Of a DNA stretch of 64,000 nt, positions 8,436 to 21,669 are shown one piece after another. The notes under the pieces were generated by a model. That model worked only from the letters and a program-made list of their open reading frames with translations. It made no database searches and was not told the DNA's origin. How positions within the stretch are numbered: position 1 is the first letter of the stretch; every line of letters starts with the position of its first letter. Made by a program: the position numbers and the translations under genes. This DNA is from Flavobacterium ovatum (GTDB lineage Bacteria > Bacteroidota > Bacteroidia > Flavobacteriales > Flavobacteriaceae), in assembly GCF_040703125.1 (NCBI RefSeq), contig NZ_CP160035.1, forward strand, positions 930,001-994,000. The letters run 5' to 3'.

Positions 8436-9296
8436 TTGAAAAACATTCCCAATATATCATTTCAAAGTGTCGAGAAATCAAAAGATTTTGAGTGTTTGAA
8501 TTTGGCGGACTTATTCGCCAGAATGCCAGACATAGTAGATCACAATCCTACGCAACCGCATCGCATATCTTTTTTTGCTTTATTATTAGTAACCAAAGGA
8601 TTTGGTACCCATCAAATAGATTTAAAAGAATACGATTTAAAAGCAGGAACAGTGCTTAAAATTGCCAAAGGACAAGTACATGCTTTTCAGAAAAACGCAA
8701 AATATGAAGGCTATTTAATCATTTTTACCGAAGATTTTGTAGTGAATCATTTTTCGAAATCTTCGATAAATATGATTTCGCATTTGTACAATTACCATAT
8801 TTCGTCGCCTATATTTAGTAATGAAGCTGGAAATAAAATCTTTTTGGACCAACTAATGGTAGAGGTGAAAAACGAAAATAATTATGCCAAAGAAAACATT
8901 GTTGCTGCTTTACTCAACTTGTATTTATTGCGATTGGAGCGAGAATTCAATGATACTTTAGAAAATAACAATTCGAACCATTACGCTATTTTTATTCAGT
9001 TCAAAAACTTGGTTGAAGCCCATTATACAAGCACTCGCAACGTAAAAGACTACGCCAATAAATTGTTTATTTCGACCAAACATCTCAACCAAGTAGTCAA
9101 AGAATTCACTTTGAACACCGCTAAACATTTCATAGACGATTTTGTGATTCTCGAAACTAAAAGAGCGATGGTGAGTTCGAATAATAGCCTTAAAGAAATT
9201 GCCTTTGCAGTTGGTTTTGACGAGGTAACCAATTTTACCAAATTCTTCAAAAAACATACTGGCACTACGCCAAAACAGTTTAGCGGCGACTTATAA
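8436..9296 (+). CDS. AraC family transcriptional regulator (cupin sensor)
   Basis: A 286-residue regulator with an N-terminal cupin-like ligand-binding part (ALLLVTKGFGTHQI, LKAGTVLKIAKGQVHAF) and a C-terminal AraC domain (about 185-286) with STKHLNQVVKEF and a final GTTPKQF. It starts with TTG: an in-frame TAG sits just upstream at 8430-8432 and the next ATG would remove part of the cupin. It stands directly before a gene whose promoter has a 21-bp-spaced direct repeat, so it is the best local candidate to bind the recurrent TTKACC operator; that is inference. Confidence 0.88.
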   Translation: MKNIPNISFQSVEKSKDFECLNLADLFARMPDIVDHNPTQPHRISFFALLLVTKGFGTHQIDLKEYDLKAGTVLKIAKGQVHAFQKNAKYEGYLIIFTEDFVVNHFSKSSINMISHLYNYHISSPIFSNEAGNKIFLDQLMVEVKNENNYAKENIVAALLNLYLLRLEREFNDTLENNNSNHYAIFIQFKNLVEAHYTSTRNVKDYANKLFISTKHLNQVVKEFTLNTAKHFIDDFVILETKRAMVSSNNSLKEIAFAVGFDEVTNFTKFFKKHTGTTPKQFSGDL

Positions 9297-9313: not shown

Positions 9314-9371
9314 TTTACCATTAATTGTCTACTATTGACCTACTTAACTGTCATAGGATGAGGTAATTTTG
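9314..9371 (+). promoter_or_regulatory. AraC-type activated promoter, copy 1
   Basis: TTTACC at 9314-9319 and TTGACC at 9335-9340 are 21 bp apart; exactly 23 bp later comes a perfect -7 box TAATTTTG at 9364-9371. No -33 TTG is placed 17-23 bp from the -7 box, as expected for an activator-dependent promoter. The ATG at 9396 follows 24 bp on. The same spacing recurs at 10809, 11470, 15846 and 20555. Confidence 0.65.
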
Positions 9372-9395
9372 TATTTAATCTTAAAGACTATAAAA

Positions 9396-9845
9396 ATGAA
9401 AGCAAAAGTATTTACCCTTATTTGTTTGGTACTATTAGGTACTGGACTTGGTTTTGCACAAAACAAAACAGCCGAAGAAAATAAATTCCAATTTGAGCAA
9501 CCAGAACATTATTTAGATGGTTACTCTTTAAATTTTCAATATCAAAATGGAACTGCTCTACACATGGAGTTTTATGACGGTATGGCAAAATACGAATGGA
9601 TTTCTGGTCCTTCAAAAGGAAACGGAAACAAAGATATTCCCTATCGTTCTAGTAAAATTGGTAACGATCTTTACTTAATCAATTGGCACGAAGTGGATAA
9701 AAAAGATTATCTAACCATCGTTTTTGATTTCGAAAAAATGACCATGCACAGCTCTATTATCGTTGGTTATGAGAATAAACCCGAACGAACTTTGAAAACC
9801 GTTTTTAAAAGAGGAGTTATTGATCATTTAAAAAGAGGTGAATAA
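9396..9845 (+). CDS. Secreted MoaF-like protein
   Basis: A 149-residue protein with a signal peptide (MKAKVFTLICLVLLGTGLGFAQ, cleaved after AQ), hence periplasmic. The start at 9396 is chosen because the peptide begins there. The mature part (YSLNFQYQNGTALHMEFY, YEWISGP, LYLINWHE, LTIVFDFE) looks like the lipocalin-fold MoaF/phenolic-acid-decarboxylase-like family. Function is unknown; despite the name, MoaF is not an established molybdenum cofactor enzyme. It is controlled by the direct-repeat promoter at 9314 just after an AraC gene. Confidence 0.72.
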   Translation: MKAKVFTLICLVLLGTGLGFAQNKTAEENKFQFEQPEHYLDGYSLNFQYQNGTALHMEFYDGMAKYEWISGPSKGNGNKDIPYRSSKIGNDLYLINWHEVDKKDYLTIVFDFEKMTMHSSIIVGYENKPERTLKTVFKRGVIDHLKRGE

Positions 9846-9877
9846 CGGTTATAGATACTAATTAATTAGCAAAATAG

Positions 9878-10041
9878 TTAGTGTAATAATTTTTACTAAG
9901 GCACTTCAATTAGTGATAATTAGTGCAATTCGTGACAAACAACACCTAGAATTTTACTCGATAACTTCATGATGTTAATTAGTGTAATTGTTTTTACTAA
10001 GTCATTTCAATTAGTGAAAATTAGTGCAATTCGTGTCAAAC
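9878..10041 (+). repeat. Two 63-bp direct repeats of the AATTCGTG family
   Basis: Copy 1 (9878-9940) and copy 2 (9979-10041) both begin TTAGTGTAAT and end AATTCGTGnCAAAC, separated by 38 bp. Related AATTCGTG units occur at 15948-16213, 39185-39199 and, inverted, 48940-48967. The gap between the MoaF-like gene and the methyltransferase holds only these repeats and the hairpins at 10081. Confidence 0.75.
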
Positions 10042-10080
10042 ATTAACTTTAGTGTTGCTCTTTTGTATGTAGCACATCAG

Positions 10081-10150
10081 TAGACTCCAGCTTCAGATGG
10101 AGGCAATTCTGAGTAATAAACAGGAATACCAGTAGCAGGTGGTATTCCTT
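10081..10150. repeat. REP-like hairpin pair upstream of the methyltransferase gene
   Basis: Two hairpins: CTCCA 10085-10089 with TGGAG 10098-10102, and AGGAATACCA 10122-10131 with its complement 10140-10149. The first resembles a degenerate form of the CTCCAGCTTTAGCTGG arm in the nested palindrome at 35038. The second ends 19 bp before the ATG at 10169, so it could also act as a leader or terminator hairpin. Confidence 0.5.
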
Positions 10151-10168
10151 CATTTAAAATAAAATGAT

Positions 10169-10795
10169 ATGAACACCACCACAGTAGCACCAATAGATTT
10201 TGTTTTGGAAGCCTTATACAACGATGCTAAAAAAGATCGTTTAAAAATGGCTATAAATTGTTTGAAGTTCGCCTTTAGAGCCATGCAACCTTCCGATTTT
10301 GAAGACTCTTATCTTTCGATAAGTAAAGAACAAGGAGCCGATTTAGTGCAAATGATTATAGAAAACAATCTTAAAAATATAGTTGAATTTGGTACTTCGT
10401 TTGGAATTTCGACTTTGTTTTTGGCAAAAGGGATTTCGCAAACTAACGGTCACATTATCACCACCGAATTGATTGCCTCGAAAGCAAAAACAGCAATGCA
10501 AAATTTTGAAGAAGCAGGAGTTGTAGATCAAATTGAGTTACGAATTGGTGATGCAATGGAAACATTAAAAGATCATAAAAAACCAATCGACTTATTACTT
10601 TTAGACGGCTGGAAAGATTTGTATTTGCCTTTGTTTCAGTTATTGGAACCTAACTTTCACGAAAAAACAATCATTTATGTCGATAATGCCGACATGGCAG
10701 AATCGCAATCTTTCCTGAAAAAAGTTGGTCAAAACGCTAAATATCAGTTTACTAGTCAATACAATGGCAAGGTCGTAATCATCACAATAAAATAG
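10169..10795 (+). CDS. SAM-dependent O-methyltransferase-like protein
   Basis: A 208-residue class I methyltransferase. Motif I is VEFGTSFGIS (about 72-81), followed by IITTELIASKA as the acidic ribose-binding strand, and DLLLLDGWKDLYLPLF as the catalytic-metal region typical of catechol O-methyltransferase-like family 3. Acceptor substrate is unknown. Its last 44 codons plus the downstream promoter region (10665-10877) are duplicated at 11326-11538. The two hairpins before it and the AATTCGTG repeats separate it from the MoaF-like gene. Confidence 0.82.
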   Translation: MNTTTVAPIDFVLEALYNDAKKDRLKMAINCLKFAFRAMQPSDFEDSYLSISKEQGADLVQMIIENNLKNIVEFGTSFGISTLFLAKGISQTNGHIITTELIASKAKTAMQNFEEAGVVDQIELRIGDAMETLKDHKKPIDLLLLDGWKDLYLPLFQLLEPNFHEKTIIYVDNADMAESQSFLKKVGQNAKYQFTSQYNGKVVIITIK

Positions 10796-10877
10796 GTAAA
10801 GGCACACATTTACCATTTTCAACCGAGGATTTACCTTTAGAAAATGGTGGTATAGAAGCAACTTTGTAGAAATTAAA
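10665..10877 (+). repeat. 213-bp duplicated segment, copy A
   Basis: Covers the end of the methyltransferase gene, the intergenic space and the regulated promoter before the gene at 10889. Copy B is 11326-11538, the same length without gaps and roughly 87 percent identical by eye; differences in the coding part are mostly silent. Confidence 0.85.
10809..10866 (+). promoter_or_regulatory. AraC-type activated promoter, copy 2
   Basis: TTTACC at 10809-10814 and 10830-10835 (21-bp spacing), 23 bp, then CAACTTTG at 10859-10866 in the -7 position. ACCATTTTC (10812-10820) and GAAAATGGT (10840-10848) also form an inverted repeat around the second half-site. ATG of the membrane protein gene follows at 10889. 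Confidence 0.65.
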
Positions 10878-10888
10878 CTTTTATAATT

Positions 10889-11317
10889 ATGACAAAATTG
10901 AATACTATTAAAATTCCATTGTGGGTAAACATAATGCAGAGCATATTAGTCTTAATAATGCTTGGGCAAGTATACATGTATTTTTTGAATCACCAAATGA
11001 TGATAGATTCCGGAATTCATACAGAAGGTATTCCGAACCTAAATCTAATTTATGAAATGGGAGCGCGAACCCTAGTAATGGCCTTGATTTCAATTTATGT
11101 AATGGTAACCCAAAATCCACAACAATACCTCGTTGTGCTTATAATGAACATACTAAGAGAAGGATTTGAAACCATTATTGACCCTCTTTATCCTTTATTA
11201 AACGCTCCCGCTTCGCCAATGGTAGATGTAGTAATGCACATAGTAATTGTAGCGGTGGAAGTTCTAGCTTTTGTTACCGTTTTCAAATTAGTAAAAAAGA
11301 ATTCTATAACTGTTTAA
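10889..11317 (+). CDS. Small four-helix membrane protein, unknown function
   Basis: A 142-residue protein with about four transmembrane helices (SILVLIMLGQVYMYFL, TLVMALISIYVMV, a third amphipathic stretch, and IVIVAVEVLAFVTVF) and no signal peptide or catalytic motif. I do not recognise a named family. It is governed by the direct-repeat promoter at 10809 and flanked on both sides by copies of the duplicated 213-bp segment, so its promoter is shared with the small zinc-type gene downstream. Confidence 0.72.
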   Translation: MTKLNTIKIPLWVNIMQSILVLIMLGQVYMYFLNHQMMIDSGIHTEGIPNLNLIYEMGARTLVMALISIYVMVTQNPQQYLVVLIMNILREGFETIIDPLYPLLNAPASPMVDVVMHIVIVAVEVLAFVTVFKLVKKNSITV

Positions 11318-11325
11318 TACCAAAC

Positions 11326-11456
11326 AAACAATAATTTATGTCGGTAATACCGACATGGCGGAATCACAATCTTTTCTGAAAACAGTTGGTCAAAATTCTA
11401 AGTACCAGTTTACTAGCCAGTACAATGGCAAACTAGTAATCATCACAATAAAATAA
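11326..11456 (+). pseudogene. 3' remnant of a second O-methyltransferase gene
   Basis: In frame this reads TIIYVGNTDMAESQSFL and ends VIITIK with TAA 11454-11456, matching the last 42 residues of the methyltransferase at 10169-10795. Most base changes are silent, so the source was a functional paralogue before truncation. No 5' part remains. Confidence 0.8.
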
Positions 11457-11469
11457 GTAAAGGCACACA

Positions 11470-11527
11470 TTTACCATTTTCAACCGAGGATTTACCTTTA
11501 TGAAATGGTAATATAGATGCAATTTTG
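11470..11527 (+). promoter_or_regulatory. AraC-type activated promoter, copy 3
   Basis: TTTACC at 11470-11475 and 11491-11496 (21 bp apart), 23 bp, then CAATTTTG at 11520-11527. It came with duplication copy B and stands 20 bp before the ATG at 11548. Confidence 0.65.
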
Positions 11528-11547
11528 TATAAATTAAATTAAAAAAC

Positions 11548-11745
11548 ATGAGTCAAGTAGCAGTTTGCCCAACCTGTGGCAACAATTCAAAAATAAAAGA
11601 AGTCAACGGAGAGGTAACTTTTCAAGCCATTCAAGATGAAGAATTGATCAAAAAAATTGGTCAGTTAAAAAACGCCATGGAAAAATTCAAGTCAAAAGCA
11701 GAGGCTTTAGAAAAAGAATTAGAAGCTTTTAAATCAAAAAAATAA
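11548..11745 (+). CDS. Small CxxC protein with coiled-coil tail
   Basis: A 65-residue protein: an N-terminal CPTCG half of a zinc ribbon at residues 7-11, then a lysine/glutamate heptad region from about residue 30 (IKKIGQLKNAMEKF, ALEKELEAF) predicted to form a coiled coil. Only one CxxC pair exists, so metal binding would need dimerisation. No family name is recognised. It starts 10 bp after duplication copy B and is followed 4 bp later by the SnoaL-like gene, so both are probably expressed from the duplicated promoter. Confidence 0.7.
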   Translation: MSQVAVCPTCGNNSKIKEVNGEVTFQAIQDEELIKKIGQLKNAMEKFKSKAEALEKELEAFKSKK

Positions 11746-11749
11746 GAGT

Positions 11750-12127
11750 ATGAATTTAGATCAAAATAAACAAAATGCCATTGCTTTTTATAAAATGGCA
11801 TACGAGGGAAACCCGGTTCAGGCGGTCGCAATGTATGTGGGTGAGGATTATATTCAGCACAATCCAATGGTGGGTGATGGGCCTCAGGCGTTTATAGCTT
11901 ATTTTGAGAGAATGCAAAAAGAGTTCCCTGTCAAAACGATTGAATTCGTTCGCACCATAGCCGAAGGTGATTTGGTTGCGCTACACACACATCAAGTTTG
12001 GCCAGATGAGGATGAGTATGTCACAATGGATTTCTTTCGTTTTTCTGACGATGGTAAAATAGTGGAGCACTGGGACAGTATTCAGCAAATTCCCAAAACG
12101 GCATTAAATGCTAATAAAATGTACTAA
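11750..12127 (+). CDS. SnoaL-like / nuclear transport factor 2 family protein
   Basis: A 125-residue NTF2-like protein of the predicted SnoaL-aldol-condensation type. Marks are AIAFYKMAYEGNPVQAV, VGEDYIQHNPMVGDGP with the family's QHNP, LVALHTHQVWP and FFRFSDDGKIVEHWD. Polyketide cyclases and limonene epoxide hydrolases share the fold, but most short members have no known reaction. It lies 4 bp after the CxxC gene; the following membrane gene starts 10 bp after its stop. Confidence 0.82.
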   Translation: MNLDQNKQNAIAFYKMAYEGNPVQAVAMYVGEDYIQHNPMVGDGPQAFIAYFERMQKEFPVKTIEFVRTIAEGDLVALHTHQVWPDEDEYVTMDFFRFSDDGKIVEHWDSIQQIPKTALNANKMY

Positions 12128-12137
12128 GAAGCAGCAA

Positions 12138-12746
12138 ATGAGTTTTATTAAAAAAAATTACGGTTGGATGCTAGTCGCACTAATTGGTGTCTTGCCAATC
12201 ATCCCGCTTTTAAATTTGGTTACCCTAAATTTCTCCAATGGTTTTTCGATTAGTTTGGTAGAAGGAACCGCTGGCGAGGGAAAATCGTCTCTAGAAATGC
12301 TGTACCATATCTCGGGCGAGTTTGCCATAAGGTGGATGACCGCCGTGCTTACTTGTACGCCGTTTTTTATTCTGTTTGGTGTCAACAATTTATTTGTACG
12401 TCAAGCCATGGGTATCACAGCAGCCGTGTGGAGTTTTATTCATTTCATCATTTTTATTTGGGCCGAAGGATTTGCAGAAACCTTTACCGAAGCCAATTAC
12501 ATAGCGGGTTTTATAGCTGTATTGATTTTGATTCCGTTGTTTTTTACTTCGAATAGAAAAGCGATGAAGAAATTAAAGAAGAACTGGAAAAAGATTCAAA
12601 CCTATGCCTACGGAGCTATTATTTTGAGTTTGTTACACGTAATACTTCTCGAAAAAACTTGGCTTATTTACGGAATAATTGTCGGTCTTGGTTTTATCAT
12701 TCGATTGCCATTCGTAAAAAATAAAATTTTCGAATTTCGAAAGTAA
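12138..12746 (+). CDS. MsrQ/YedZ-like ferric-reductase-type membrane protein
   Basis: A 202-residue membrane protein with about six helices. The pattern resembles the heme-binding subunit MsrQ (YedZ): GEFAIRWMTAVLTCTPFF, RQAMGITAAVWSFIHF, LFFTSNRKAMKKLKKNWKKI and LSLLHVILL, giving two helix histidines that could ligate heme. ATG 12138 is preferred because the ten residues upstream in frame overlap the previous gene and are not part of the helix. Its usual partner MsrP (molybdopterin methionine sulfoxide reductase) is not seen nearby, so its electron acceptor is unknown. Confidence 0.68.
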   Translation: MSFIKKNYGWMLVALIGVLPIIPLLNLVTLNFSNGFSISLVEGTAGEGKSSLEMLYHISGEFAIRWMTAVLTCTPFFILFGVNNLFVRQAMGITAAVWSFIHFIIFIWAEGFAETFTEANYIAGFIAVLILIPLFFTSNRKAMKKLKKNWKKIQTYAYGAIILSLLHVILLEKTWLIYGIIVGLGFIIRLPFVKNKIFEFRK

Positions 12747-13014
12747 AAATACATATTTGTTGTCGTAAGTAAGTAGATTTTCAATGATTTAAAAAATTAT
12801 TTCTATATTTAATAAAAGGGACAACATTATAAAAGCTATCCTATTTCGACAGTGTAATTATGAAACATATAATTTAAATGTTGCTATTTTAAAAACATGT
12901 AATTTTATAATTTTGTTAGAAGTGGAATCGTAACACCCTTAAAAATATAGTCAGTTGAAGGCTATTTTGTAAACTAGCTTGGAAAATTAATCTATTTAAA
13001 ATTTTTAGAATCGA

Positions 13015-14163
13015 ATGAATATTACCGATAAATACAAACAAGTACGACAAGATACAATCAACTTTTGTAGTCATTTGCAAGTAGAAGATTATTCGATTCA
13101 AATTGTGCAATTTGCAAGTCCGCCCAAATGGCATTTGGCACACACCACTTGGTTTTTTGAGACTTTTATCCTCAAAGGTCAGTTCGAAAATTATAAAGAA
13201 TTCAGCTCCGATTTCAATTTTCTATTCAACAGTTATTACAACAATGTAGGTACTCGAATTTTGCAAACCAACAGAGGCAATATGTCGCGTCCTAGTACCG
13301 ACGAAATTTTGGAATACCGTACTTATGTTGATGCCAAAATGCTTGAATTATTAGAAAAGGAAAGCGACCCAAAAATACTTGATTTGGTCATTTTGGGACT
13401 AAATCACGAGCAACAACACCAAGAATTATTGATTACCGATGTGAAATACATGTTGGGACACAATCCTATTTTCCCTGTTTTTAACGAAAATTATAATTTG
13501 GTTGCCGATACAAATTCCGAGTCAAATGCGATAAAAATCGAAGCTGGAATTTACGAAATTGGGTATCAAGGAACTGATTTTTGTTATGATAACGAGTTGG
13601 GCGTACACAAGGTGTATGTAGCCGATTTCGAAATCAACAATTTTATGGTCACCAATGGTGATTATATCGATTTTATAGAAAAAGGAGGCTATACCGATTT
13701 TAACCTTTGGCTTGACGAAGGTTGGTCTTGGGTAAACGCAAACCAAATAATTGCGCCACTCTATTGGCACAAAATAGAAGGCGAATGGTACAATTATACA
13801 CTTGCGGGTTTGCAAAAAGTAGATTCGAATGCTATTTTGAGCCATATCAATTATTTTGAAGCGAATGCCTTTGCGGAATGGAAAGGCATGCGATTGCCAA
13901 CCGAATTTGAATGGGAAATTGCCGCAGCAAAACTAGATTGGGGCAAACGCTGGGAATGGACAAATAGTGCCTACTTGGGGTATCCAAATTTCAAAAAAGA
14001 AAATGGTGCTGTTGGCGAGTACAACGGAAAATTTATGAGTAACAAAATGGTATTACGAGGCGCATCGGTGGCAACTTCAAAAGAACACAGCCGACCGACT
14101 TATCGCAATTTTTTTAACCCAACGGAAAGATGGCAATTCACCGGAATCCGATTAGCTAAATAA
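13015..14163 (+). CDS. egtB: Ergothioneine biosynthesis protein EgtB
   Basis: A 382-residue non-heme iron sulfoxide synthase. The N-terminal DinB-like domain (HLAHTTWFFETF) holds the iron-binding HEQQHQE at residues 131-137; the C-terminal formylglycine-generating-enzyme-like domain has MVTNGDYIDFI, GMRLPTEFEWE, WEWTNSAYLGY and a terminal WQFTGIRLA. EgtB joins hercynine to cysteine or gamma-glutamylcysteine using oxygen. The stop is 4 bp before egtD. A -7-like TAATTTTG lies at 12908-12915. The absence of an egtC/egtE here means the last step must be encoded elsewhere. Confidence 0.92.
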   Translation: MNITDKYKQVRQDTINFCSHLQVEDYSIQIVQFASPPKWHLAHTTWFFETFILKGQFENYKEFSSDFNFLFNSYYNNVGTRILQTNRGNMSRPSTDEILEYRTYVDAKMLELLEKESDPKILDLVILGLNHEQQHQELLITDVKYMLGHNPIFPVFNENYNLVADTNSESNAIKIEAGIYEIGYQGTDFCYDNELGVHKVYVADFEINNFMVTNGDYIDFIEKGGYTDFNLWLDEGWSWVNANQIIAPLYWHKIEGEWYNYTLAGLQKVDSNAILSHINYFEANAFAEWKGMRLPTEFEWEIAAAKLDWGKRWEWTNSAYLGYPNFKKENGAVGEYNGKFMSNKMVLRGASVATSKEHSRPTYRNFFNPTERWQFTGIRLAK

Positions 14164-14167
14164 GATC

Positions 14168-15166
14168 ATGCAAACGATAACAGATACAGTACAAACGAAG
14201 CAGTCAACGGAAGAAAATTTCCTTTATACTTTCAAGAAGGATGTTCAAAAAGGCTTGAGTGAAAGTCCAAAAATGCTGTCGTCAAAATATTTTTATGATA
14301 AAATAGGAGACGCACTTTTTGTCGAAATTATGAATTTGCCAGAATATTATTTGACACGTTCGGAACACGATATTTTCAAGAATAAAACACAGGAATTGAT
14401 TGAAGGTTTTGGTATCGACCCAAATTCGTATTTCGAATTAATCGAACTCGGGGCTGGTGATGGATTGAAAACCAAAGAATTACTAAAAATGTTAGATGAT
14501 CAAAACTATACCTTTGATTATTTGCCTATCGATTTTTCGTCGAATGCGTTAACTTTATTAGAACAAAACTTAGCTGTAGAATTGCCTAATGTTAGTGTAC
14601 GAACCCAGCAAGGCGATTATTTTGAGGTTTTAGCCTCGTTGAAAGAAAGCAAACAGCCCAAAGTTATTTTATTTTTGGGTTCGAATATCGGGAACATGAG
14701 TGATGCTATGACGGCCGAATTTGTCTATAATTTGGGAGCTAATCTTCAGCTAGGCGACAAATTATTGATTTGTGTTGATTTAATCAAAGCCAAAGAAATT
14801 GTTTTGCCAGCGTATAATGATAGCAGGGGAGTGACAGCCAATTTTAACCTCAATCTTTTGGACCGAATCAATCATGATTTGGGTGGAGATTTTAATCGAA
14901 ATAATTTTCAACATTTACCTGAGTACGATGAAGATGAAGGTATTGCAAAAAGCGCTATTGTAAGCACCATCAAACAAAAAGTGACGATAAAAGCATTAGC
15001 ACAAAGTTTTGAATTTGAAGCAGGCGAAAAAATCCATACCGAAATTTCGAGAAAATACAACGATGTTCTGATGGCGCAAATTATCTCGAAAACCGATTTT
15101 AGCATTGAAACTAAAATTTTGGACAGTAAAAACTATTTTGCCGACTATATTTTAACCAGAAAGTAA
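14168..15166 (+). CDS. egtD: L-histidine N-alpha-methyltransferase EgtD
   Basis: A 332-residue methyltransferase making hercynine (trimethylhistidine) from histidine and three SAM. Signature parts are SSKYFYDKIGDALF, NLPEYYLTRSE, LIELGAGDGLKTKELL (motif I), YLPIDFSS and ILFLGSNIGNM. Length equals the family norm. It is encoded between egtB and the racemase-fold gene with gaps of 4 and 3 bp, so the three are surely translated from one message. Confidence 0.95.
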   Translation: MQTITDTVQTKQSTEENFLYTFKKDVQKGLSESPKMLSSKYFYDKIGDALFVEIMNLPEYYLTRSEHDIFKNKTQELIEGFGIDPNSYFELIELGAGDGLKTKELLKMLDDQNYTFDYLPIDFSSNALTLLEQNLAVELPNVSVRTQQGDYFEVLASLKESKQPKVILFLGSNIGNMSDAMTAEFVYNLGANLQLGDKLLICVDLIKAKEIVLPAYNDSRGVTANFNLNLLDRINHDLGGDFNRNNFQHLPEYDEDEGIAKSAIVSTIKQKVTIKALAQSFEFEAGEKIHTEISRKYNDVLMAQIISKTDFSIETKILDSKNYFADYILTRK

Positions 15167-15169
15167 AAA

Positions 15170-15835
15170 ATGAGTAAAGCAACCGTTGGACTATTGGGAT
15201 TGGGGAGTCGCTCTACTTTGTACTACATCAAGGAGCTAAACCGATTGTATAATCAAAAAAAAGGTGGATACAGCACTTTTCCGTTTGTGATGCTTAATGC
15301 TGATTTTGATACAATTAATCCGCTTTTGCCTAATACTTCAGAAGCTTTGGATACTGTTGTTCAAACGTATATTGACGAGCTCGAAAAGTTATCCATTACT
15401 ACTATTTTGATTCCGAATATAACACTGCACGAAACCATTGACCGATTAGATGTTCAGAGAAAAATCCTGCATCCGCTAGCTTTAGCGGTCGAAAAAATAA
15501 TAGAGCAGGAGTGGAGCACCATCGTTTTATTTGGTTCGCTCCATTCTATGGAATCGAATTATATTCGTTCGTATTTTAACGCCAAAGGAATAGAAGTTCA
15601 ACTTCCATCACAAGAAGACCGTTTGTTTATAGACGACTTTCGAAAACAAACTTATTCCGAAACCGAAACCCCAAATTTGATAGCGTCCTACCATTCGATA
15701 CTAAACAAATACACCAAAATTTTCCCCGTAGTACTTGCCTGCACAGAGTTGTCCATCTTAAAACCAACCGACAACAACCGCATTATAGACATGGCGCAAC
15801 TTCAAATAGAAAAAGCCGTTTCAGAAACAGTATAA
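15170..15835 (+). CDS. Aspartate/glutamate racemase-fold protein, altered active site
   Basis: A 221-residue Asp/Glu/hydantoin racemase-fold protein. The second catalytic cysteine is present as Cys191 in VVLACTELSIL. The first cysteine motif, usually PCNTxH, reads PNITLH, so Asn83 stands in place of Cys. Two-base racemisation is therefore unlikely; one-base chemistry such as isomerase or decarboxylase is possible. Location directly behind egtB-egtD suggests a role in thiol-histidine metabolism, perhaps replacing a missing step, but this is inference. It starts 3 bp after egtD. Confidence 0.75.
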   Translation: MSKATVGLLGLGSRSTLYYIKELNRLYNQKKGGYSTFPFVMLNADFDTINPLLPNTSEALDTVVQTYIDELEKLSITTILIPNITLHETIDRLDVQRKILHPLALAVEKIIEQEWSTIVLFGSLHSMESNYIRSYFNAKGIEVQLPSQEDRLFIDDFRKQTYSETETPNLIASYHSILNKYTKIFPVVLACTELSILKPTDNNRIIDMAQLQIEKAVSETV

Positions 15836-15845
15836 TAGTCTCAGA

Positions 15846-15903
15846 TTTACCATTATTAGCAAAAGATTGATACAAACAACAAAGCAGAAAATAATCATCT
15901 TTG
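15846..15903 (+). promoter_or_regulatory. AraC-type promoter, copy 4, without adjacent gene
   Basis: TTTACC at 15846-15851, TTGATA at 15867-15872 (21 bp on), 23 bp, then CATCTTTG at 15896-15903. Spacing equals that of the other copies, but the next start codon is 390 bp downstream at 16294 beyond a repeat array. It may serve that gene or be left from a deleted one. Confidence 0.45.
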
Positions 15904-15947
15904 TAATAGAATTTTGAATTCGATTAGTCAAATAAAATCAACTGAAA

Positions 15948-16213
15948 AATTCGTTCAATTAATTTAATCATTGATAATTCGTACTCCCGACGCTTCGGGA
16001 TGTGTAATTCGTGTCCCTTTTTATCAGCACAATCATATTAAAAAGAATTCGTGCAATTAATTTAAGTTCTGAAAATTCGTGGCAATTCGTGCAATTCGTG
16101 TCCCTTTTTTTTAGCACAATCAAACTAAAAAAAAATTCGTGGAATTAATTTAACCCCTGATAATTCGTGCCAATTTGTGTAATTCGTGTCCAACTTTTTC
16201 AGCGCAATCAAAG
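15948..16213 (+). repeat. Three tandem units of the AATTCGTG repeat
   Basis: Units start at 15948, 16046 and 16134 (98, 88 and about 80 bp). Each has AATTCGTnnAATTAATTTAA, a middle part ending AATTCGTGTCC, and a tail like AGCACAATCA. Unit 1 contains an inserted hairpin CCCGA-cgct-TCGGG near 15985-16000. This fills most of the 458-bp gap between the racemase-fold gene and the NmrA-like gene. Confidence 0.8.
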
Positions 16214-16293
16214 TAATAACAATATGTTCAAACTTTTTTCAGCATAATACAATATAAAAATCGTGTCTCTTTTTGACATTAAAAACAAATAAT

Positions 16294-17154
16294 ATGAAAA
16301 TAGCAGTAACATCAGCAAGTGGACATTTAGGTGCTTCCATCGTCAAACACCTATGTAACTTAATCGGAACAGAAAACGTCATTGCCATTGCTCGAACAGT
16401 CGAAAAAGCAACCCATTTAGGCGTCGAAGTTCGAAAAGGAGACTACAACAATCGCTCTGAATTTGATGCAGCCTTGCAAGGCGTAGCTACCGTTTTACTC
16501 GTTTCAGGCATGGACGAACCACAAAAAAGAATCGAGCAACACCGCAATGTCATTGAAGCGGCAAAAAGCGCTGGAGTCAAAAAAATCGTGTACACCAGTA
16601 TCGTAGGTGCCGAAGAAAACAACGCTTTTAGTCCCATTGTTCAAACCAATAGACAAACCGAAAGAGACGTGCAAGAATCTGGATTATCTTGGGTAATTGG
16701 TCGCAACGGAATCTATATCGAACCCGATTTGGAGTATCTTGAAACCTACCTAAAAGACGGCGAAATTCGAAATTGTGCGGGTGAAGGGAAGTGTACGTAT
16801 ACGAGCAGGCAAGAGTTGGGTTACGCTTACGCGAAAATGCTAGTGGAAGACCAACACAACGGACATACTTATAATTTGGTTGGAAACGGCATCACCCAAG
16901 CCCAATTGGCGGCCGACATCAATACGGTTTTTGGAACTGATTTGGTTTACAATTCTGTTTCTGTAGCAGACTACGCAACCGAAAGAAAAGCCGAGTTGGG
17001 TGATTTCATAGGAACCATAATCGCAGGAATCTACGAAGGGATAAAAATGGGTGCCAACGTTGCTCCTTCGGATTATGAGAAAGCGGCAGGAAGACCACAT
17101 ATTTCGGCAGTTGAAATGATGAAGAATTTCCAAGAAAGTCAAAAGGAATCCTAA
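16294..17154 (+). CDS. NmrA/QorB-like NAD(P)H-binding oxidoreductase
   Basis: A 286-residue atypical SDR: MKIAVTSASGHLGASIV at the N-terminus is the dinucleotide loop, followed by KGDYNNRSEF, VSGMDEPQKRIEQHRNVIEAA and VYTSIVGAE, all usual for NmrA-like proteins and NADPH:quinone reductase QorB. ATG 16294 is chosen over the in-frame upstream codon because the Rossmann strand starts there. It lies before a TetR gene that has its own operator, so control by that regulator is not shown. Substrate likely a quinone or none. Confidence 0.85.
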   Translation: MKIAVTSASGHLGASIVKHLCNLIGTENVIAIARTVEKATHLGVEVRKGDYNNRSEFDAALQGVATVLLVSGMDEPQKRIEQHRNVIEAAKSAGVKKIVYTSIVGAEENNAFSPIVQTNRQTERDVQESGLSWVIGRNGIYIEPDLEYLETYLKDGEIRNCAGEGKCTYTSRQELGYAYAKMLVEDQHNGHTYNLVGNGITQAQLAADINTVFGTDLVYNSVSVADYATERKAELGDFIGTIIAGIYEGIKMGANVAPSDYEKAAGRPHISAVEMMKNFQESQKES

Positions 17155-17214
17155 GTGATATAAGTGCCTCGTTTTAATCGAAATCTAAAAAAAAGGTTAA
17201 AACGTTTTTTTATT

Positions 17215-17236
17215 TCTAACCGATTGGTTAGATTTG
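17215..17236 (+). promoter_or_regulatory. TetR operator overlapping its own promoter
   Basis: Palindrome TCTAACC (17215-17221), GATT, GGTTAGA (17226-17232). Its right arm overlaps a perfect -7 box TAGATTTG at 17229-17236, 18 bp before the TetR start codon. This arrangement fits autorepression. Confidence 0.75.
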
Positions 17237-17254
17237 TACCGTATTAGAGAAACA

Positions 17255-17818
17255 ATGGCTAGAAAGAAAGAATATAACGAAGTAGAAGTAGTCGAAAAAG
17301 CAATGAACCTTTTTTGGAAGAACGGCTTTGAGATGACCTCTATGCAGATGCTCGAAAAAGAAATGGGCATCAATAAGTTTTCTATTTATTCTAGTTTTGG
17401 CAGCAAGCAAGGTTTGTTTCTAGAGAGTTTAAAATGTTACAAAGGAAAAATTAGCAGTATGTTCGCTGATTTAATTCAAGGAACAAATGGTATCGAAGAT
17501 ATCAAACAATTTTTCTACAATTCGGTTACACATAAGCTAGAGGCAGGAAACCAAAAAGGGTGCCTTTTGACTAATACGTACAATGAATTTTCAGAAAGCG
17601 ATGATGAAGTGATAAAAGAACAAATGGCATCTTTTATGAACGATTTGAAAATGATTTTTATCGAAAAGCTTAAGATGGATTCGATGAAAGATGAAGAAAC
17701 TGTGCTAAAGCAAGCTAATTATTTAGTATTAGCAAAACATGGTTTGGCAGCAGCCACAAGAGTAAACAGCAAACAAGAAATAGAAGACTATATCGAAATG
17801 ACTTTCAAAAATCTATAG
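17255..17818 (+). CDS. TetR/AcrR family transcriptional regulator
   Basis: A 187-residue repressor with an N-terminal HTH: VEKAMNLFWKNGFEMTSMQM, then MGINKFSIYSSFGSKQGLFL, as in the TetR_C_16/AcrR-type YxxFxSKxxL pattern. The C-terminal ligand domain has GCLLTNTYNEFS, common in regulators sensing electrophiles. ATG 17255 is used because the seven upstream residues lie in the promoter. Two similar 16-bp palindromes, one on its own promoter and one before the AhpD-like gene, suggest it represses both. Confidence 0.9.
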   Translation: MARKKEYNEVEVVEKAMNLFWKNGFEMTSMQMLEKEMGINKFSIYSSFGSKQGLFLESLKCYKGKISSMFADLIQGTNGIEDIKQFFYNSVTHKLEAGNQKGCLLTNTYNEFSESDDEVIKEQMASFMNDLKMIFIEKLKMDSMKDEETVLKQANYLVLAKHGLAAATRVNSKQEIEDYIEMTFKNL

Positions 17819-17838
17819 CCCTTTTTTTTATAATAAAA

Positions 17839-17854
17839 CTAAACGAACGTTTAG
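17839..17854 (+). promoter_or_regulatory. Second TetR-type palindrome
   Basis: CTAAACG-AA-CGTTTAG, a perfect palindrome 35 bp before the AhpD-like start codon. It matches the core of the 17215 site at 12 of 16 positions with equal length (CTAA...TTAG outer arms). Confidence 0.6.
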
Positions 17855-17889
17855 AAATAATTAACAATAATAAATTAAATACAAACAAT

Positions 17890-18447
17890 ATGACAACTTT
17901 AAAAATTCACAACAACGAAACAGCACCAGAAGCTAGTAAACCATTATTAGAAAATTCACAAAAAGCATACGGAATGATTCCAGGATTGCACGGTGTTTTG
18001 GCTGGAGCTCCAAAAATATTTGAAGCCTACCAAAAATTACACGAATTGTTTACTGAAACCTCTTTTAACGAAGAAGAACTAACAGTAGTTTGGCAAACCA
18101 TTAATGTAGCGCATGCTTGTCACTATTGTGTACCAGCGCACACCGGAATCGCAAAAATGATGAAAGTAGATGATGCCATCACTGATGCATTGCGTAATGA
18201 AACACCTTTGGAAAGCTCAAAATTAGAAGCTTTACGCACCTTGACATTGTCAATTACAAGAAATCGTGGTAATGTATCACAAGAAGAATTAGAAGCTTTT
18301 TACGCAGCTGGTTATGGAGAGCAACAAGTACTAGAAATCATCTTAGGATTGTCTCAAAAAGTAATTAGTAATTACACCAATCATATTGCCAATACACCTG
18401 TAGATGCTCCTTTTCAAAAATTTGCTTGGGAACCTGCAACAGTTTAA
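17890..18447 (+). CDS. Carboxymuconolactone decarboxylase / AhpD-like protein
   Basis: A 185-residue all-helical protein of the CMD/AhpD family. The redox motif is CHYCVPAHTG with CxxC and a histidine three residues on, the arrangement of the AhpD peroxidase active site. Residues before (FNEEELTVVWQTINVAHAC) and after (ESSKLEALRTLTLSITRN) fit the duplicated helix pattern. Likely a peroxide- or electrophile-protective thiol protein. A palindrome at 17839 suggests control by the TetR encoded upstream. The next region is a nested repeat. Confidence 0.88.
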   Translation: MTTLKIHNNETAPEASKPLLENSQKAYGMIPGLHGVLAGAPKIFEAYQKLHELFTETSFNEEELTVVWQTINVAHACHYCVPAHTGIAKMMKVDDAITDALRNETPLESSKLEALRTLTLSITRNRGNVSQEELEAFYAAGYGEQQVLEIILGLSQKVISNYTNHIANTPVDAPFQKFAWEPATV

Positions 18448-18493
18448 ATCTTATTAATAACTCACGTTCGATTAATAATTTTGCAAAAAAAAA

Positions 18494-18625
18494 ATCAATA
18501 GGAATGGGCTTCAGCCCATTTATTAAATATGATTTTGATTGGCTTTAGCCACAATATAAATAATTTTGGCTAAAGCCAATTCGCTGTTTCCTTTATAAAA
18601 TAGGCTAAAGCCTATTCCTATTGAT
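18494..18625. repeat. Nested palindromic repeat, GGCTTTAGCC family
   Basis: Outer arms ATCAATAGGAAT (18494-18505) and ATTCCTATTGAT (18614-18625) enclose GGGCTTCAGCCC, GGCTTTAGCC, GGCTAAAGCC and AGGCTAAAGCCT. The whole can fold into one cruciform with side hairpins. A related element is at 35038-35166. With the terminator it occupies the gap 18448-18729. Confidence 0.8.
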
Positions 18626-18637
18626 TTCCATAAAAGT

Positions 18638-18670
18638 AAAAGTTCAAATCTAAGGTTTGAACTTTTCTTT
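18638..18670 (+). terminator. Intrinsic terminator
   Basis: AAAAGTTCAAA at 18638-18648 pairs with TTTGAACTTTT at 18656-18666, followed by CTTTTTT. It closes the AhpD-like transcript ahead of the haloacid dehalogenase gene. Confidence 0.8.
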
Positions 18671-18729
18671 TTTAAAGAGAATAGCTAAATTTACGGTACA
18701 ATAGTGTACTGCCCTAAAAAATAAAACAG

Positions 18730-19416
18730 ATGACAATCCATAAACCCAAAGTACTATTTTTTGACGTAAACGAAACCCTTTTGGACCTAACCGTAATGAA
18801 ACAGCAAATCGGAGCTGCTTTAGGGGGAAAAGAAGAGTTGCTGTCGCTGTGGTTCACAACCTTGTTACAATACTCCTTAGTCCTTTCGGCAAGCGGGCAA
18901 TACAAACCGTTTGGGCAAATTGGTGCTGCTGCTTTGCAAATGGTTGCGGCAAATAATGGCATTACACTATCTGAAGATAAAGCACGAGAAATTGTCATAA
19001 ATGCCATGCAGAATTTACCGCCTCATCCAGAAGTTAAACAAGCCTTAACCTTATTGAAAAAGGAAGGATACACCTTGGTCGCTTTAACAAATTCATCTGA
19101 GGAAAGTTTAAAAAATAATTTCGAAAACATTGGTTTGACTCCTTATTTTGACCAATTATTAAGCATTGAAACCGTAGGTAAGTTCAAGCCATTTACGGAT
19201 GTTTACAACTGGGCAGCAAACAAAATGCAAGTTCAACCCAAAGATTGTATGCTTATCGCCGCACATGGTTGGGATGTAGCTGGCGCAATGTGGGCTGGTT
19301 GGAGAGCCGCTTTTGTTGGTCGTCCGGGACAGCAACCGTTCCCTTTGGCTCCTGAAACGGAAATTAACGAAACGGATTTGCAAAAGATTGCAGGTATTTT
19401 GATTATCTATAGATAG
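18730..19416 (+). CDS. Haloacid dehalogenase type II
   Basis: A 228-residue HAD hydrolase of the L-2-haloacid dehalogenase group. Nucleophile Asp12 lies in FFDVNETLLD; the type II family is marked by VALTNSSEESL, KPFTDVYNWAA and MLIAAHGWDVAGA, with WRAAFVGRPGQ after motif IV. The second aspartate usual in phosphatases is replaced by asparagine (DVNET), as in dehalogenases. It would convert 2-haloacids to 2-hydroxyacids. A haloalkane dehalogenase is encoded at 4812, so both ends of a haloalkane route are in the window. Confidence 0.88.
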   Translation: MTIHKPKVLFFDVNETLLDLTVMKQQIGAALGGKEELLSLWFTTLLQYSLVLSASGQYKPFGQIGAAALQMVAANNGITLSEDKAREIVINAMQNLPPHPEVKQALTLLKKEGYTLVALTNSSEESLKNNFENIGLTPYFDQLLSIETVGKFKPFTDVYNWAANKMQVQPKDCMLIAAHGWDVAGAMWAGWRAAFVGRPGQQPFPLAPETEINETDLQKIAGILIIYR

Positions 19417-19571
19417 TTGAATTAGAATTAGATAACTACACTACAAAATAGAAATTGGCTAGTAAAAAATAATCTAAGAGTAACAGTTATAAAATGATTG
19501 ATTTTTCGATAAAAATAAATCTACAGATAAATATATTATCTTTGTAAGTATATAAAAAAACAGAATACAAA

Positions 19572-20471
19572 TTGGAAATTTCTTTAATAAAACACCATTC
19601 AACCAATGATATTGTTGGACTTTTTGGGGACTTACCTCAAGAATCTGAAGGGCTGCATGTGTATATTTCGAAAAACGAATTCAACGAAATTCCGGTTAGT
19701 TATCCCTTTCGAACAGACAATCATACCTTCATGTTAATCCTTAAAGGCGAAGTTCACATTCAGCTGAATCTGATTCACTATGTGTTGGGTCCGAATGAAA
19801 TGGTGGTTATAAAACCGCACACTGTAATGCATATCTTAAAAATGAGCACCGACTTAAAGTTGGTAGGCTTTTGTTTTTCGAATGAATTCATTCTTCAAAA
19901 TAACTTTAAAAAGACAGATTATGATGCTTTGAATTTCTTCACAGCAAGCAACATTCCGAAATTAAAATTATCTAAGGAAGAAAGAGTGGCTACCCTTTCG
20001 TTGGCTAAACTATTGGCAAAAAATAACCAAACAACAGAGATTGCTATGCCTTTTCGAAAAGAAATAATTCGACATGGATTTATTACCTTAATGTATCATT
20101 TAGCAGCAATATTCAGAACCACTCATCCTAATCTTGAAGCCGAATTTTCTCGACAAGAAGATCTTACACTACGTTTTCTATCTATTTTGAATCTTAATTT
20201 CAAAAAAGAACGCACCGTGCAATTTTATGCCGATGAACTTGCGGTGACTACTGGTCATTTATCCAAAGTGTTGAAAGATGTTTCTGGAAAAACAGCAAGC
20301 CAATTAATTGAGGATTCCGTAATCATGGAAGCCAGACTTTTGTTAAAAAACTCTTCTTTAACAATTGCTCAAGTCGCAGACGAATTGAAGTTTAGCGATC
20401 AGTCGTTTTTTGGAAAATATTTCAAAAAGCAAACCGGTTTTTCTCCTTCTAAATATAAAAACATCTCGTAA
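19572..20471 (+). CDS. AraC family transcriptional regulator
   Basis: A 299-residue regulator with a cupin-type N-terminus (FMLILKGEVHIQL, VLGPNEMVVIKPHTVM) and a C-terminal AraC domain (about 200-299: TTGHLSKVLKDVSGKT, SQFFGKYF-like SDQSFFGKYF, TGFSPSKYK). It begins with TTG; a -7 box TATCTTTG at 19537-19544 is 27 bp upstream, consistent with that start. The gene stands directly before the RND operon, whose promoter has 21-bp-spaced half-sites, so it probably controls the pump; proof is lacking. Confidence 0.88.
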   Translation: MEISLIKHHSTNDIVGLFGDLPQESEGLHVYISKNEFNEIPVSYPFRTDNHTFMLILKGEVHIQLNLIHYVLGPNEMVVIKPHTVMHILKMSTDLKLVGFCFSNEFILQNNFKKTDYDALNFFTASNIPKLKLSKEERVATLSLAKLLAKNNQTTEIAMPFRKEIIRHGFITLMYHLAAIFRTTHPNLEAEFSRQEDLTLRFLSILNLNFKKERTVQFYADELAVTTGHLSKVLKDVSGKTASQLIEDSVIMEARLLLKNSSLTIAQVADELKFSDQSFFGKYFKKQTGFSPSKYKNIS

Positions 20472-20554
20472 CACGGTATTTAGACCAATAAACTAAGTAT
20501 AGAAACCTATTTATGGTAAATAAGTTACTATCATGATTTTTTAAATAATCGATA

Positions 20555-20612
20555 TTGACCAAAACTCCCCTTTTTTAGACCTTTTGTAACAGCTAGTATT
20601 GTAGCAATTTTG
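20555..20612 (+). promoter_or_regulatory. AraC-type activated promoter, copy 5 (RND operon)
   Basis: TTGACC at 20555-20560 and TAGACC at 20576-20581 (21 bp apart), 23 bp, then CAATTTTG at 20605-20612. The adaptor gene starts at 20656. The half-sites diverge more than in copies 1-3 but keep ACC and all spacings. Confidence 0.6.
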
Positions 20613-20655: not shown

Positions 20656-21669
20656 ATGAAACAATTAGCTCTCTTAGCCACTTTTATTTTTTTACTAAAT
20701 AGTTGTGCCGATAAAAAAGAAACAAAACATGAAGAAATCGCTGCCAAGGTTAGCGTAAAAGAAATCACCACTACATCTGAAAATGAAACGCTTAACTACA
20801 GCGGAACAATCGAAGCAGACAATACTGTTTCGATAGGCTTTGCCGTTGCAGGACGAATCTCAAGCGTAGTTGTCGATGAAGGACAAAGAGTTCAAAAAGG
20901 ACAGTTACTAGCATCAATCGATGCAACTACTTACCAAAATGCCTTTTATATCGCCAAAGCAAGCGCAGAACAAGATAATGATAATTATAAAAGATTGAAC
21001 GGTTTGTACCAAAAAGGAAGCTTACCAGAACGTGATTTTATTGCTGTAAAAGTGGCTGTTGCTCAAGCAAATGCTAACAAAAGTATGGCTGCCAAAAATC
21101 TTTCTGACACCAAATTGTACGCTCCTTTCACAGGAATCATCACAACAAAATCAGCTGAAGTTGGTGCCACTGCTGCACCAAGTATTCCTGCATTTACCAT
21201 CATGAAAACGGATAAAGTGTATGCAAAAGCTTCGATAACCGAGTCAGAAATCGCGAAATTAAAAATTGGTAAAGCAGCAACAGTAAGCATTGCTTCACTA
21301 GACAAAACTTTCAATGGTAAAGTAGATATTTTAAATCCAAGCGCTGACGAATTAACGAGAACCTTTAATGTAAAAGTGCGTTTGAACAACAGCGAAAACC
21401 AACTTTTGCCTGGTATGATTAGTAGCATAAAAATCGAAACAGGAAATGTTGTCGATGTGATTAGCATTCCTTCTGTAGCTATCGTTAGAAATGCAGACAA
21501 TATCCTATTTGTTTATGTAGCAGAAAACGGAAAAGCGATTAAAAAAAGAGTCACTGTTGGTGATTTTAAAAACAATGATATCATCATTACTTCCGGATTA
21601 AAAATAGGCGATAAAGTGCTAATTGAAGGCCAAAAGAATGTAAAAGAAGGTCAGGCCATTAGCCTTTAA
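20656..21669 (+). CDS. RND efflux periplasmic adaptor (membrane fusion lipoprotein)
   Basis: A 337-residue HlyD/AcrA-family adaptor. The lipobox LLNSC gives a lipid-anchored Cys after a 16-residue signal. Order: N-terminal beta strand, biotinyl-lipoyl half motif GFAVAGRISSVVVDEGQ with RVQKGQLLASID, helical hairpin (AKASAEQDNDNY, AKNLSDTKLYAPF), beta-barrel and the membrane-proximal part ending KVLIEGQKNVKEGQ. It links the inner-membrane pump and the TolC-like channel encoded next. First gene of the operon, 24 bp before the pump. Confidence 0.92.
   Translation: MKQLALLATFIFLLNSCADKKETKHEEIAAKVSVKEITTTSENETLNYSGTIEADNTVSIGFAVAGRISSVVVDEGQRVQKGQLLASIDATTYQNAFYIAKASAEQDNDNYKRLNGLYQKGSLPERDFIAVKVAVAQANANKSMAAKNLSDTKLYAPFTGIITTKSAEVGATAAPSIPAFTIMKTDKVYAKASITESEIAKLKIGKAATVSIASLDKTFNGKVDILNPSADELTRTFNVKVRLNNSENQLLPGMISSIKIETGNVVDVISIPSVAIVRNADNILFVYVAENGKAIKKRVTVGDFKNNDIIITSGLKIGDKVLIEGQKNVKEGQAISL

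Follow-up and report, generated by a model that had tools for sequence, protein, structure and literature searches.

Four promoters carry the same 58-base-pair (bp) control sequence, and a fifth has the same layout, in a 64,000-nucleotide (nt) stretch of the Flavobacterium ovatum genome (GCF_040703125.1, NZ_CP160035.1, positions 930,001-994,000, forward strand; hereafter the window). In many related bacteria the sequence directly follows the gene of one AraC-type regulator and precedes a recurring set of apparent detoxification genes, and so it very probably marks a real regulon. We consider it highly likely that the four strong sites are operators of a neighbouring AraC-family regulator, AraC-8436, which would govern a ligand-activated local regulon, and that the fifth is a sister operator of a second regulator, AraC-19572, before RND efflux genes. 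The sequence of the element, its spacing, its conservation and its co-occurrence with the regulator were all directly observed.

Five promoters share one operator layout

The regulator gene and the five sites are arranged as follows.

8436..9296, + strand: AraC-8436, an AraC-family regulator of 286 amino acids (aa) with an N-terminal cupin and a C-terminal HTH_18 domain; proposed activator of the four strong sites
9314..9371, + strand: operator 1; TTTACC 9314-9319, TTGACC 9335-9340, -7 box 9364-9371; before a MoaF-like gene
10809..10866, + strand: operator 2 (duplicate); TTTACC 10809-10814, TTTACC 10830-10835, -7 box 10859-10866; before a membrane-protein gene
11470..11527, + strand: operator 3; TTTACC 11470-11475, TTTACC 11491-11496, -7 box 11520-11527; before the gene of a CxxC protein and the genes that follow it
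15846..15903, + strand: operator 4; TTTACC 15846-15851, right half TTGATA 15867-15872, -7 box 15896-15903
20555..20612, + strand: operator 5, sister type; TTGACC 20555-20560, TAGACC 20576-20581, -7 box 20605-20612; before RND efflux genes

AraC-8436 matches Pfam HTH_18 at 66.4 bits (cut-off 33.6) and AraC_binding (PF02311) at 30.4 bits (cut-off 21.1). An initial annotation of the window had described the five sites as two six-base half-sites 21 bp apart, followed after 23 bp by a -7 box. Four of the sites agree with this description exactly, and the 21- and 23-bp spacings and the operator 4 box (CATCTTTG at 15896) are as given there, but the right half-site of operator 4, at 15867, reads TTGATA and departs from the consensus.

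Operators 2 and 3 sit in the two copies of a direct duplication, so that, as had been recognized, only four of the sites are independent.

10662..10877, + strand: duplication copy 1, 216 nt; the 3' end of a methyltransferase gene plus operator
11323..11538, + strand: duplication copy 2, 216 nt; direct, 88% identical to copy 1

Inverted ACCATTT elements are also present within operators 2 and 3.

The element is conserved behind AraC-8436 orthologs

A search with AraC-8436 yielded 131 related loci with at most 8 kilobases per flank, some of them shorter; all figures for 80 loci refer to the best 80 of these 131, which range from Flavobacterium to Flexithrix, Algoriphagus and Saprospiraceae. Of 63 close loci among the 80 (L013-L073, L079 and L084), 56 show the element in the first 45 bp behind the AraC stop codon, starting 6-20 bp past it. 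These 56 include a degenerate element at L015, where a better match lies further downstream. Operator 1, whose left half-site begins 17 bp past the AraC-8436 stop, occupies the place common to L013 and most close AraC loci.

Two matrices were derived from these elements, one from the 45 that were left after removal of near-copies and one, free of Flavobacterium, from 42 dereplicated elements kept from 53. The Flavobacterium-free matrix scores the sites of operators 1-5 at 54.1, 53.6, 44.5, 32.2 and 14.6, as listed, and finds nothing else at or above 6 on either strand of the window; over 150 simulated windows, 9.6 Mb scanned on both strands, the highest score was 9.6. The 45-element matrix, which includes Flavobacterium, gives 53.6, 53.2, 47.7, 33.3 and 15.6, with no other window match at or above 8 and a simulated best of 11.7 (40 windows). 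We give this test more weight than matches to the annotated pattern, because that pattern had been derived from these very sites. Across the 80 loci the matrix matches the AraC strand 105 times at a score of at least 14, and 50 of these matches had no part in its training; the opposite strand has none of at least 8.

The 56 elements align without gaps into a column profile in which the left half reads CCCAYATTTACCATT..TTA, the right half, 21 bp on, reads ATTNACCT, and AnnTTTG occupies positions 52-58, the -7 box beginning 50 bp after the start of the left half-site. AnnTTTG stands at +52 in 48 of the 56, with four counts elsewhere among offsets 44-57. An exact TTNACC is found at +22 in 37 of the 56 and at +21 or +28 in four (offsets 14-33 checked). 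This ungapped profile, with its 21-bp spacing, supports the proposal of an AraC-type operator with two direct half-sites two helical turns apart. The TTTACC-type direct pair is likewise real, although the true half-site is longer than the six bases first noted, approximately CCCAYATTTACCATT for the left half and ATTNACCT for the right. The first base of the -7 box varies across elements, at every spacing of 17-25 bp a TTG ahead of the box is present in at most 4 of the 56, and the predicted start is a purine in 46 of the 56.

As separate observations, Arenibacter algicola carries three paralogous AraC loci in one genome (L037, L046 and L050) with an operator at each, and at L051 an early stop interrupts the frame read from the start of the match.

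Operator and regulator co-occur across genomes

Pattern counts were compared with a reversed-pattern control. In the 4,249,485-base genome of F. ovatum, the strict pattern TTKACC-N15-TWKACC-N23-YANNTTTG has four matches, which are operators 1, 2, 3 and 5 on the + strand; the other strand and the reversed control have none. A longer pattern with at most three mismatches also has four matches, operators 1-4, against none for the control. In the genome scan called for in the initial annotation, matches are thus confined to the window.

With up to three mismatches, the 25 genomes behind the 80 loci hold 48 matches in 23 genomes. Forty-four of these lie within AraC loci and the other four all have three mismatches; the control has two, both in one 9.5 Mb genome. 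With up to two mismatches, 299 genomes of the family (F. ovatum included) hold 27 matches in 19 genomes, against one for the control. AraC-8436 is found at E 1e-70 in 14 of the 299, of which 11 are among the 19 operator genomes. Seven of the eight operator genomes that lack an AraC at this threshold have an in-cluster AraC of 31-37% identity. The eighth, G433, has an AraC spread over several frames (54-74% identity; L277, 1280-1934) beside the operator and target genes, which we take for either a decayed gene or a sequencing error. The three AraC genomes that lack a pattern match have matrix scores of 20, 52 and 45 behind AraC.

Of the 27 family matches, 26 have such an AraC in their cluster. 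The remaining one, in G623, precedes a MoaF gene at 4,897,405 on a contig of 5,066,785 bases, with AraC at 125,370, and this distance argues for action in trans. Within the genus, the three AraC loci besides the window also carry the element, with matrix scores of 54 (L010), 45 (L011) and 39 (L012).

Candidate targets include redox and ergothioneine genes

The genes downstream of operators 1-4 are the following.

9396..9845, + strand: MoaF-like protein with an apparent signal peptide; PF22036 36.7 bits, PF10703 23.8 bits
10169..10795, + strand: class I O-methyltransferase (family 3); PF01596 44.6 bits
10889..11317, + strand: small membrane protein, so named by inspection; no Pfam match
11548..11745, + strand: CxxC protein of 65 aa, carrying a single conserved CPTCG and probably a coiled coil; unmatched in Pfam
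11750..12127, + strand: SnoaL-like protein; PF12680 55.7 bits
12138..12746, + strand: ferric-reductase-like / MsrQ-like membrane protein; PF01794 30.4 bits, NCBIfam MsrQ 44.4 (cut-off 130)
13015..14163, + strand: EgtB, ergothioneine biosynthesis; TIGR03440 518.9 bits (cut-off 360)
14168..15166, + strand: EgtD-like histidine N-methyltransferase; TIGR03438 272.8 bits, slightly under the cut-off of 290.9
15170..15835, + strand: amino-acid racemase family protein; TIGR00035 46.1 bits (cut-off 93.1)
16294..17154, + strand: NmrA-family NAD(P)H oxidoreductase; phmmer E 2e-36 to 2zcu and 3e-35 to 2vrb

Genes in the loci were labelled by our own open reading frame (ORF) calling and BLAST against the window proteins. 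In the 80 loci and the window together, 110 sites score at least 14, all on the AraC strand and none on the other. The gene of the CxxC protein is the commonest first gene behind them (26 sites), followed by MoaF (24), NmrA (17) and SnoaL (11, a label that takes in matches of approximately 30% identity). Two metallo-beta-lactamase-fold groups, whose labels rest on matches under curated cut-offs, account for nine and seven sites, the methyltransferase for five, and the RND adaptor and the ferric-reductase-like gene for three each; the remaining five sites precede the membrane protein (one), EgtB (one), an unnamed gene (one) or no gene (two).

Relatives of the window genes at E 1e-6 occur in the 80 loci as follows: NmrA in 58, CxxC in 45, ferric-reductase-like in 34, MoaF and methyltransferase in 24 each, SnoaL in 23, EgtB and EgtD in 18 each, and racemase in 13. 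The CxxC protein is present in 46 of 81 sources when the window is counted. Flanked by the two duplication copies, the membrane-protein gene has no relative at this threshold in the 80 loci, and therefore seems to have come under the regulator through the operator duplication; a single operator stands ahead of CxxC in L013-L017. The O-methyltransferase is presumably transcribed from operator 1. An operator between the racemase and NmrA genes is found, besides the window, in L013, L014, L016, L024, L030, L033, L058, L062, L065 and L281. The distance from its box to NmrA is 393 bp in L013, 206 bp in L016, and 24-51 bp in L014, L020, L024, L030, L033, L058, L062 and L065.

Noncoding repeats with AATTCGTG-type units lie behind MoaF (9875-10060), and related ones lie between operator 4 and NmrA (15945-16231).

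A probable sister operator precedes the RND efflux genes

The fifth site lies between the gene of a second AraC-family regulator and a set of efflux genes.

19572..20471, + strand: AraC-19572, second AraC-family regulator; HTH_18 65.4 bits (cut-off 33.6)
20481..20486, + strand: candidate additional half-site TAGACC, 9 bp past the stop codon of AraC-19572
20656-21669, + strand: RND adaptor; TIGR01730 220 bits
21693-24893, + strand: RND pump, named from its translation by inspection
24896-26182, + strand: outer-membrane factor, named from its translation by inspection

AraC-19572 is 24% identical to AraC-8436, and a Pfam search matched no domain, a cupin included, in its N-terminal part. At E 1e-60 it is detected at 12 loci, in 11 of the 249 genus genomes searched. 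Behind the stop codon of five of the 11 other loci (L128, L129, L132, L133 and L137) there is a left half of the form TAGACCAA, TTGACCAA or TTTACCAA with.AnnTTTG exactly 50 bp on; six (L130, L131, L134, L135, L136 and L138) lack such a form. The 12 loci hold 41 such half-sites on both strands, and the box stands at +50 for six of them, which are those of the five loci and the window. The full right half TAGACC is conserved in L128 and L129 only.

The initial annotation had assigned all five promoters to one AraC regulon. An AraC-type operator and a regulon with AraC-8436 hold up, but control of every site by one AraC protein, whichever of the two it were, is unlikely. The common layout and the shared ACC core speak for a single protein, as does the rank of the RND site above all simulated background with the AraC-8436 matrix. 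Against this, the RND site scores 14.6-15.6 where the other sites score 32-54, its left half TTGACCAAA is unlike TTTACCATT, an RND adaptor follows just three of the 110 sites scored by the matrix (one each in the window, L015 and L016), and five of the 11 other AraC-19572 orthologs keep their own version of the layout with other half-sites. This low score and the separately kept layout make two regulators likelier than one for the five sites, and the RND site is probably a sister operator with its own regulator, AraC-19572.

The extra TAGACC, 74 bp (approximately seven helical turns) upstream of operator 5, could serve as a looping site; besides the window (L127), it is found in the same place in L128 only.

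AraC-8436 as a candidate activator

We infer binding, activation, the start site and operon extents, the mechanism of activation being drawn from site anatomy and known AraC proteins. Two AraC-8436 subunits would occupy the two direct half-sites on the same DNA face, 21 bp apart. The right half-site would then lie at approximately -41 to -36 from the predicted start, substituting for the -33 element beside a weak -7 box (AnnTTTG). Given this position of the right half-site near a weak box, contact with RNA polymerase and activation are most likely, and AraC-8436 would switch the promoter on after binding a small molecule. The local regulon would comprise the MoaF-like gene and probably the methyltransferase; the membrane protein; the series CxxC-SnoaL-ferric-reductase-like-EgtB-EgtD-racemase; and the NmrA reductase. 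Operator 5, ahead of the RND efflux genes, would be bound by AraC-19572.

The predicted start was placed from the -7 box of F. psychrophilum; flavobacterial sigma-A promoters are described with a box TAnnTTTG at -12 to -5 (PMC9723704). Our elements share AnnTTTG at a fixed place and the purine at the predicted start with these promoters, but differ from them in the variable first base of the box and in having no -33 TTG at 17-25 bp spacings. These two departures make the promoters seem weak without help. They thereby count against AraC-8436 acting as a repressor that blocks the promoter until a ligand frees it, which we regard as quite unlikely even though a repressor, too, could act at the position of the -33 element, which the right half-site overlaps.

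The cluster also encodes other regulators, which might bind the sites and leave AraC-8436 a mere neighbour.

17255: TetR-type gene; weak TetR-family matches
7608: Crp/Fnr-type gene, named from its translation by inspection

A dimer that binds palindromes is poorly matched to direct repeats spaced by two helical turns. Relatives of these two genes are scarce (TetR in 2 and Crp/Fnr in 10 of the 80 loci), whereas AraC and operator are found together in all 22 family genomes that have either, and a role for a TetR- or Crp/Fnr-like protein at the sites is therefore very improbable. Chance plus duplication can be practically dismissed: the pattern was derived from the sites, two of the five sites are duplicates and the genus frequency of the pattern is no higher than that of the reversed control, but the independent matrix, the 150 simulated windows, the whole-genome scans and the occurrences in other genera stand against it.

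Several results weigh against activation of this regulon by AraC-8436, or against its generality. Seven of the 63 close loci show no element in the first 45 bp past the AraC stop, although all seven have a matrix score of at least 42 further downstream, and among distant AraC loci only 8 of 17 have a match of at least 10 near the stop. The right half-site is variable, as at operator 4, and 391 bp of sequence spanning repeats separate the operator 4 box from the NmrA ORF. The annotated TTKACC pattern, for which a scan of related genomes had been proposed, is not enriched genus-wide: 249 genus genomes, F. ovatum included, give 7 matches in 5 genomes against 25 for the reversed control. A search at E 1e-60 detected AraC-8436 itself in just four of 398 genomes of the genus. 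The functional assignments rest on homology, in part weak or under curated cut-offs. Finally, an alignment of the AraC sensor domain (62 loci and the window; L051 omitted) has a single cysteine column, with cysteine in 22% of the 63 sequences. Since the sensor domain has no conserved cysteine, direct thiol sensing by AraC-8436 is unlikely, and we rejected it.

Relation to known systems and possible role

The direct pair is itself a familiar arrangement. At araBAD, E. coli AraC binds a direct pair of half-sites with 21-bp spacing, whose inner member overlaps the -35 region. AraC-8436 would use the same 21-bp direct pair, but half-site sequence, sigma factor and ligand differ. Two reports describe Bacteroides AraC-type regulators with direct repeats of approximately 21 bp (PMC3870299, PMC3878776). 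RhaR of Bacteroides, Bacillales and Enterococcus is likewise of the AraC family; it differs in serving rhamnose catabolism, and its motifs are called unique (PMC3870299). Hybrid two-component systems (HTCS) of Bacteroides have an AraC-type DNA-binding domain and direct repeats such as 16+5, 12+9 and 14+6 bp, with a period of 20-21 bp; they are membrane sensor kinases for polysaccharides, unlike the 286-aa cupin protein AraC-8436 (PMC3878776). The regulon also departs from the sugar and glycan regulons of RhaR and HTCS in its targets, which are redox, ergothioneine, methyltransferase and unnamed genes.

HpaA, the regulator of 4-hydroxyphenylacetate catabolism, is the top NCBIfam model for both AraC-8436 (97.1 bits) and AraC-19572 (81.9 bits), yet both lie far under its equivalog cut-off of 274.65. 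Among the publications listed by searches of the open-licence literature, judged mostly by titles and the beginnings of abstracts, none was on this regulator, operator or gene set. Direct 21-bp AraC repeats are thus already known, and we found no description of an AraC-8436 regulon.

To our knowledge, an activator and its operator are known for few promoters of Flavobacteriia. In the present case the 58-bp plan, the regulator and the likely targets are readable from sequence in many genera, and the regulon is therefore directly testable. It would assign a named regulator to the ergothioneine genes and to a 65-aa protein that is widely conserved and has no name.

On ligand and physiological role we can only guess. 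The regulon might respond to phenol-, quinone- or other electrophile-type stress, because its targets resemble QorB/triphenylmethane reductase, family-3 O-methyltransferase, phenolic acid decarboxylase (weakly) and EgtB/EgtD, and because HpaA is the top model. The PDB entries nearest to the NmrA protein are E. coli YtfG (QorB) and triphenylmethane reductase. Solved relatives of the O-methyltransferase include family-3 and catechol O-methyltransferases, though the top match is a tRNA 5-hydroxyuridine methyltransferase, and the MoaF-like protein has a weak phmmer match (E 5e-4) to the phenolic acid decarboxylase 8a85.

A broader scenario, which we put forward tentatively as conceivable though somewhat doubtful, is that AraC-8436 and its diverged relatives form a Bacteroidota-wide sensor of phenolics or quinones, for instance algal compounds. 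Such a sensor would drive a detoxification set of QorB-like reductase, catechol-type methyltransferase, ergothioneine enzymes and the new CxxC protein; the operator would have stayed near-fixed while the regulator diverged to 31-37% identity, and the 216-nt duplication would have added the membrane-protein gene. PMC9296495 and PMC5613140 report on genes of oxidative stress during growth on fresh algae and on the induction of AraC-family regulators by algal polysaccharides; their consulted portions do not name the present cluster.

Further observations

We also asked whether the layout extends to the AraC genes of the family in general. The sample comprised 79 AraC genes among those listed for 11 genomes, with long hybrid sensors excluded and two loci with an odd stop (L233 and L239) kept. 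Such a general rule is unsupported, as the combination of 21 bp and 50 bp forms no peak; a TAnnTTTG box lies 45-260 bp past the stop in 21 of the 79 genes. In the summed positions of these genes, repeat matches are slightly commoner at spacings of 18 and 20-22 bp.

Between the peroxidase-related (AhpD-like) and HAD genes of the window lies a 36-nt inverted repeat (18492-18627), with arms 86% complementary and 64 nt apart, that is perhaps a small mobile palindrome.

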